This document shows, piece by piece, positions 10,001 to 10,299 of a DNA stretch of 64,000 nucleotides. The position numbers and the translations under genes were made by a program. Source of the DNA: Candidatus Nitrosotenuis uzonensis (lineage in GTDB: Archaea > Thermoproteota > Nitrososphaeria > Nitrososphaerales > Nitrosopumilaceae); the NCBI RefSeq assembly GCF_000723185.1, contig NZ_CBTY010000009.1:1-64000 (forward strand), read 5' to 3'. Within the stretch, counting starts at the first letter, position 1. Each line of letters starts with the position of its first letter. The notes under the pieces are model-generated. The model was not told the DNA's origin, did not search any database, and saw only the letters and a program-made list of their open reading frames with translations.

Positions 10001-10299
10001 TAATGCGGTCTGCCCACCATAACCCAACATTATTCCATCAGGGCGTTCTGCCTCGATTATTGAGCTTACATACTCTACAGTAACAGGCAGTAAGTACACT
10101 TTATCCGCAAATCTTGTGTCAGTCTGAATCGTTGCTATATTCGGATTGATAAGTACACTTTTCAGACCGTCTTCGCGAATGGCTTTGAGGCACTGGCTAC
10201 CGGAGTAGTCGAATTAGCGGTCGTTTTTGCGACTTTCGCCTGCTTCTCCGATTTTGATTGCCCCACTACCCAACACCAAAATTTTCTTTAGTTGCTCAT
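7046..10299 (-). CDS. carB: carbamoyl-phosphate synthase large subunit; 5' end disrupted
   Basis: CarB makes carbamoyl phosphate from ammonia, bicarbonate and two ATP with CarA. Both ATP-grasp halves are intact in the long open frame, which begins at 10099 (VYLLPVTVEYV onward) and contains two GGQTA..N motifs and a C-terminal MGS-like allosteric domain. The N-terminal ~75 residues are present but broken. The ATG at 10299, overlapping the carA stop as ATGA, meets a stop after three codons. One base later the frame reads [19 protein letters not shown], then a 21-base insertion with TAA (10214-10234), then FDYSGSQC and onward in frame. As written, no full-length protein can be made. A sequencing error, a real lesion or an RNA-level correction are all possible. 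Confidence 0.9.
10214..10234 (-). other. 21-base insertion with in-frame stop inside carB
   Basis: Between the conserved GEAGE and FDYSGSQC blocks of CarB there are seven extra codons, the last being TAA. Removing exactly these 21 bases restores the family sequence without a frame change. The insert can form a 4-bp hairpin (gtcg/cgac around caaaaa). Its flanks can pair too (cgaa/ttcg, and further out cggag/ctccg), giving a nested helix. The bulges are asymmetric (1 and 6 bases), so it is not a canonical archaeal bulge-helix-bulge splice site. Confidence 0.75.

Follow-up and report, generated by a model that had tools for sequence, protein, structure and literature searches.

An intron in the cbf5 pre-mRNA of Crenarchaeota was reportedly described by Watanabe in 2002. 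The cbf5 introns considered by Yokobori in 2009 are of the bulge-helix-bulge (BHB) type, 16-44 bp long and patchily lost across lineages, and in the accessible part of that paper no such intron is listed for Cenarchaeum or Nitrosopumilus (PMC2738675). The BHB introns of archaeal tRNAs span 11-175 nt, according to the same part (PMC2738675). In the accessible portion of a paper of 2020 (PMC7714728), only one further archaeal BHB intron of this sort is given as reported, that in the cbf5 mRNA of Crenarchaeota; the paper itself deals with the HVO_1309 mRNA of Haloferax.

In the window considered here, that is, the whole 64-kb stretch of DNA that was analysed, the carB gene of the host Candidatus Nitrosotenuis uzonensis is interrupted by a 21-nt insert exactly between GEAGE and FDYSG (minus strand, 10214-10234). 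The insert is almost certainly a BHB intron of the carB pre-mRNA, which would be removed by EndA and RtcB; the cleavage, the ligation and the assignment of the enzymes are predictions from sequence comparison. The gene is CarB and not cbf5, as identified by TIGR01369, and the organisms are also different, Nitrososphaerales and some DPANN versus Crenarchaeota. The candidate intron shares geometry, size range and presumed enzymes with archaeal BHB tRNA introns, whereas it resides in an mRNA, with no mature tRNA body for recognition. It is similar to the case of HVO_1309, where the splicing endonuclease cuts an mRNA at BHB sites; however, the latter lie in the 5' UTR, as far as the accessible portion of PMC7714728 goes, whereas the carB intron would be coding and its removal would restore the protein. 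No earlier report of a carB intron was found in the open-licence literature, a scope that leaves most subscription papers outside, and because of this we count it as a new gene and new lineages. With splicing as predicted, carB is the second gene with a coding BHB intron, one far more widespread than that of cbf5 and very old.

The locus consists of the following parts.

10296..11378, minus strand: carA-like ORF (small subunit), directly upstream of carB and overlapping its frame; named by eye from sequence
10235..10306, minus strand: carB exon 1, about 24 codons; 5' end uncertain
10214..10234, minus strand: candidate carB intron, 21 nt, AGTCGCAAAAACGACCGCTAA; in-frame stop TAA at its 3' end; kept in relatives
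7046..10213, minus strand: carB exon 2, from FDYSGSQ to the stop codon, 1055 aa; TIGR01369 match, alignment to solved structures

The first-pass annotation had described a 21-base stop-containing insertion at the GEAGE/FDYSG border with both flanks in a single reading frame, and all of this was confirmed on the sequence. The insert occurs only once in the window, with 0 matches expected in shuffled sequences. Exon 2 encodes the full CarB body (TIGR01369, 1411.8 bits versus the cut-off of 1027) and aligns to solved carbamoyl-phosphate synthases from approximately residue 26 of the E. coli chain. It contains a GTG-started ORF of 1017 aa (7046-10099). The host genome (1.64 Mb, 14 contigs, 99.7% complete) carries just one carB, its sole further match being a 25%-identical stretch.

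No ATG, GTG or TTG codon stands in frame ahead of the conserved block, which leaves the 5' end of exon 1 uncertain. The position of the start codon in relatives is occupied by ATA in the host. The same absence of in-frame ATG, GTG and TTG before the conserved block (minus strand, 10235-10309) was observed in most species of the genus, where the start position holds ATA, ATC or ATT in most species and TTC in one. Elsewhere it is CTG in several sister genera, and ATG or TTG in Nitrosotalea and Nitrososphaera. Possibly the start codon is an unusual one and is coupled to the overlapping stop upstream. The carAB genes are adjoined by an AAA ATPase gene (minus strand, 11521-13782) with an N-terminal helical domain, CdvC/Vps4-like as judged by eye, and the two ORFs after it may be Cdv-related, again by eye.

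The exon and intron bases may fold into a structure with an outer helix, a 4-bp central helix, two 3-nt bulges and an inner hairpin. This fold was read off without fitting, and the exon borders were set by the protein sequence. Its elements are as follows.

10242..10250, minus strand: outer (exon) helix, 5' strand, CGGAG.AGC; 98.7% of cells paired, frozen synonymous sites
10237..10240, minus strand: central helix, exon-1 side, GGCG; the glycine codon is GGC in 152 of 153 intron-bearing rows and any of four codons in empty genes
10234..10236, minus strand: 5' bulge AA|A, with the 5' splice site predicted between 10235 and 10234; conserved bulges, alignment
10230..10233, minus strand: inner helix, 5' strand, GUCG; compensatory changes in all four pairs
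10224..10229, minus strand: intron loop CAAAAA, its length differing between species in the comparison of inserts
10220..10223, minus strand: inner helix, 3' strand, CGAC; covariation
10216..10219, minus strand: central helix, intron side, CGCU; pairing across inserts
10213..10215, minus strand: 3' bulge AA|U, with the 3' splice site predicted between 10214 and 10213; conserved bulges, alignment
10201..10210, minus strand: outer (exon) helix, 3' strand, G.CU.CUCCG; pairing, frozen synonymous sites

The central helix of the host is formed by four base pairs between GGCG of the exon and CGCU of the intron. With both bulges cut behind their second nucleotide, as predicted, exactly 21 nt would be excised. 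This is analogous to cbf5, also a protein gene, where the cut is predicted between the second and third bulge residues in the accessible part of PMC2738675. In the first-pass annotation splicing was regarded as no more than speculative, since the helix was seen as departing from the canonical BHB. This view of the helix was mistaken: it does match, with a 4-bp central helix and two 3-nt bulges. Probably a different pairing of the flanks had been considered.

The fold is conserved among the relatives, although the counts below cover related rows and thus are not independent. At least three central and at least three inner pairs are formed in all 108 distinct inserts (256 loci), and at least four of each in 94 of them. 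In a set of 98 strings, 84 reach four plus four pairs and 97 reach three plus three, the sole failure being a bacterial chance match; shuffled inserts reach four plus four in 0.014% of cases. The 5' bulge is AA|A, AG|A or AA|T and the 3' bulge is AA|T, AG|T, AT|T or TA|T in 97 of 97 inserts. A selection of 28 sequences has 98.4% of its cells paired, the fraction dropping to 19-53% when the partner strand is slid by one to three columns, and all four pairs of the inner helix have compensatory changes on both sides. RNAalifold with no structure supplied returned the same BHB fold. On the other hand, single-sequence folding of the hairpin in the window is unremarkable (z = -0.97); thus it is the conservation and covariation across species that set the insert apart from chance, and not the folding of a single sequence. 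Rfam covariance models gave no match up to E = 5 in the region 10100-10330.

Not every copy is strictly canonical, since minor bulges interrupt the outer helix and some species (3 of the 28 sequences and 10 of the 97) have G-A as their top central pair. Still, the candidate carB intron usually has all four base pairs of the central helix, in contrast to the majority of newly predicted cbf5 introns, which are described as unconventional BHBs in the accessible part of PMC2738675. In one locus of the family f5 (L353, genome G253), with a 30-nt insert, GGT stands for GGC and the intron base changes together with it, from C-G to U-A. Given the predicted fold, this is a natural compensatory change across the splice site.

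The exons themselves are constrained at synonymous positions. In 153 intron-bearing rows the third bases are nearly fixed in the paired codons -6 (ATC), -5 (GGA, 147 of 153), -4 (GAA), -2 (GGC, 152 of 153), +2 (GAC, 145 of 153) and +3 (TAC, 148 of 153). The paired codon +4 is held less tightly (TCC in 130, TCT in 21 and TCA in 2). The third bases of the unpaired neighbours -3, -1 and +1 (GCN, GAR and TTY) vary, and in 75 empty, that is, intron-less rows the third bases vary at all those codons. The freezing of third positions where exon bases pair is an independent sign that RNA pairing across both exons matters to the cell. The codons -10 (GGG, 121 of about 150) and -9 (GCA, 120 of about 146) are also favoured in intron-bearing genes, which the fold does not explain.

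Translational bypassing occurs in phage T4 gene 60 and in the yeast mitochondrial byps. Here the ribosome would leave at GAA or GAG, skip the hairpin and land before TTC, and indeed a short hairpin element of variable length, containing a stop and leaving the protein unchanged when removed, is what one would expect in this case. However, the take-off codon coincides with the last insert triplet in none of the 108 distinct inserts. Bypassing does not require the BHB geometry with its bulges and exon-intron pairing, and synonymous exon sites are frozen in a way that maintains the exon-intron pairs. We thus regard bypassing as very improbable. The first-pass annotation had left open removal at the RNA level or at the level of translation; the RNA level is the best supported of the two, with splicing as its predicted form, whereas the translational variant fails on the codon matches.

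The insert is not restricted to the host. In the genus, DNA search found carB in 16 of 17 genomes and the insert in 15 of these 16, nearly unchanged though the carB genes are only about 82% identical. One genome (G016) has a clean empty site, and in another (G008) the insert is 22 rather than 21 nt long. A further genome (G015) has two different carB starts (L014 and L019) on separate contigs and is probably a mixed assembly. In the host's family of 250 genomes, 223 have a carB match and 138 contain the insert; there were 139 pattern matches, and one genome (G141) was removed because its only match lies on a contig other than that of its carB. All 22 genera of the family are represented, although in two of them (g14 and g15) the majority of genomes match the empty form only, or nothing. 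A second family has the insert in 59 of its 60 matching genomes. Among the matches listed for other families of the order, it was observed in f10 (13 of 30), f12 (2 of 3) and f5 (1 of 1), and was absent from f2 (0 of 6), f9 (0 of 9), f13 (0 of 7) and f6, f15 and f17 (0 of 1 each). The independently assembled records with the insert include the Nitrosotalea devanaterra chromosome, N. bavarica, Nitrosopumilus salaria BD31 and Nitrososphaera sp. AFS.

Outside the order, the insert pattern was found in none of 324 genomes of the phylum, counting those with and without a pattern-readable carB. A pattern scan of 84,980 named species yielded at least 119 stretches; among the matches listed, 114 bear archaeal names of this group, three are from Woesearchaeota or Ainarchaeum, and two are bacterial. 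The latter were rejected: the match in Deltaproteobacteria (L144) is not in carB and fits no BHB, and that in SAR324 (L194, 12 nt) was dropped for its length and taken as a chance match too. Both were excluded from the counts of inserts, bulges, stops and codons. In the order to which one Woesearchaeota genome belongs, the site is matched by 38 genomes out of 352. The form is empty in 29 of them, and nine have inserts of 17 to 21 nt at exactly this place in carB. A short contig labelled Ainarchaeum (L158) has a 34-nt insert. All DPANN inserts read from loci are BHB-shaped.

The first-pass annotation had also allowed for an assembly error or a real lesion in an essential gene. A lesion of recent origin would make carB a pseudogene, and indeed the stop breaks the frame of a single-copy gene in a 14-contig assembly. 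However, the insert is present in 138 genomes of the family and 59 genomes of the second one, from many independent assemblies; the exons are intact and under codon constraint, the stem covaries, and the downstream CarB scores far over the family cut-off. As a conserved and covarying insert in independent genomes already refutes error and lesion alike, we give them practically no credit. The insert is a real feature of carB, not an artefact.

The same low credit is due to a split gene, in which CarB would consist of a short N-terminal peptide plus a large fragment with a start of its own. The GTG-started ORF of 1017 aa could encode such a fragment, but it would lack the first nucleotide-binding strand. 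Moreover, a split gene predicts neither exon-intron pairing pressure nor a fixed junction, whereas both are seen, and insert-free relatives encode one continuous frame.

The lengths and stops of the inserts argue against their translation. Their lengths span 17 to 34 nt. In 61 of the 108 distinct inserts the length is not a multiple of three, and all 47 inserts of length 3n contain an in-frame stop, TAA, TAG or TGA, at several codon positions. The expected fraction of 3n inserts with a stop is 27% by shuffling and 38% with the structure kept; however, the rows are related, and thus selection for an in-frame stop is only suggestive. Read-through of the stop, or frameshifting with in-frame decoding, would add only seven residues in the 21-nt form, but with 61 inserts out of frame, stops in all the rest and the extra residues falling inside the invariant GEAGE-FDYSG block, its probability is next to nil.

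Jaillon in 2008 is said to have found that ultra-short Paramecium introns of length 3n are kept with in-frame stops. The candidate BHB introns of carB are similar in that in-frame stops in the 3n class (47 of 47) are far above expectation. However, the Paramecium introns are spliceosomal and eukaryotic, whereas the carB case would involve neither a spliceosome nor known nonsense-mediated decay. All carB copies stop or shift the frame, whereas some cbf5 introns leave it unchanged, as stated in the accessible part of PMC2738675.

In the proposed mechanism, the tRNA-splicing endonuclease EndA (alpha and beta subunits) would cut the folded message in each bulge, between the second and third nucleotides, and the exons would be joined by the RtcB ligase. 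This would restore GEAGE-FDYSG in the N-terminal ATP-grasp half of CarB, with the junction peptide GEAGEFDYSGSQ. The in-frame stop or frameshift present in every copy would keep the unspliced message from yielding CarB.

The host has the components of this machinery. There are two PF01974 (splicing endonuclease) genes. The candidate alpha subunit matches 3p1z_B (E 8.5e-44), which we take to be the catalytic subunit of the Aeropyrum endonuclease, and keeps the active-site histidine in GIDHAP. The second gene is beta-like, does not have this histidine and is closer to other EndA chains. Two PF01139 (RtcB) genes are located outside the window (contig C9:247089-248393 and 415374-416681), and one of them may be specialised. 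The host also has tRNA loci longer than a plain tRNA, and PF01974 was found in all three DPANN genomes examined. The endonuclease of Thaumarchaeota is given as the alpha2beta2 type in the accessible part of PMC4090602, and this type is linked to the cbf5 intron in that of PMC2738675. There the cbf5 intron, like that of carB, lies at a functionally needed codon block, and a hetero-oligomeric endonuclease is thought to be required (PMC2738675, same part). We infer that an enzyme of the alpha2beta2 type would cut the carB message and RtcB would join it. One argument against splicing is that, with transcription coupled to translation, a ribosome would arrive soon and there would be little time for it.

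The history of the intron was considered on a quick tree of 126 exon-2 proteins, from which the too-short sequences L096, L099, L343, L176, L152, L148, L289, L290, L291 and L305 were left out. On it the DPANN sequences cluster together (99), separated from those of Nitrososphaerales, and genes with and without the intron are interspersed in either group. Recent whole-gene transfer between Nitrososphaerales and Woesearchaeota was considered as the cause of the shared site and rejected, as the tree separates the two groups. The presence and absence of the intron require 18 changes, at least 13 of them forced; these counts are rough, because the tree was built quickly and its inner branches are weakly supported. 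They fit a single old origin followed by many losses as well as they fit repeated gain at the one site.

The candidate intron would have stayed at a fixed site since before the split of Nitrososphaerota and DPANN, or would have re-invaded it repeatedly. Together with a stop or frameshift kept by selection in every copy, this tentatively suggests that translation checks splicing and that, in the majority of ammonia-oxidising archaea, the entry into pyrimidine and arginine synthesis, its first step, is controlled in this way. We consider this reading as a whole possible but rather doubtful.

One intron present or absent at one site across hundreds of genomes provides a test of intron gain and loss, and the same set can be used to test whether in-frame stops are selected as a check on splicing. 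The carB genes of many ammonia oxidisers may be annotated as truncated or as pseudogenes. carB is essential for biosynthesis in an archaeal group that ranks among the most abundant and, if the prediction is true, archaeal mRNA splicing would be routine in ocean and soil rather than a curiosity.
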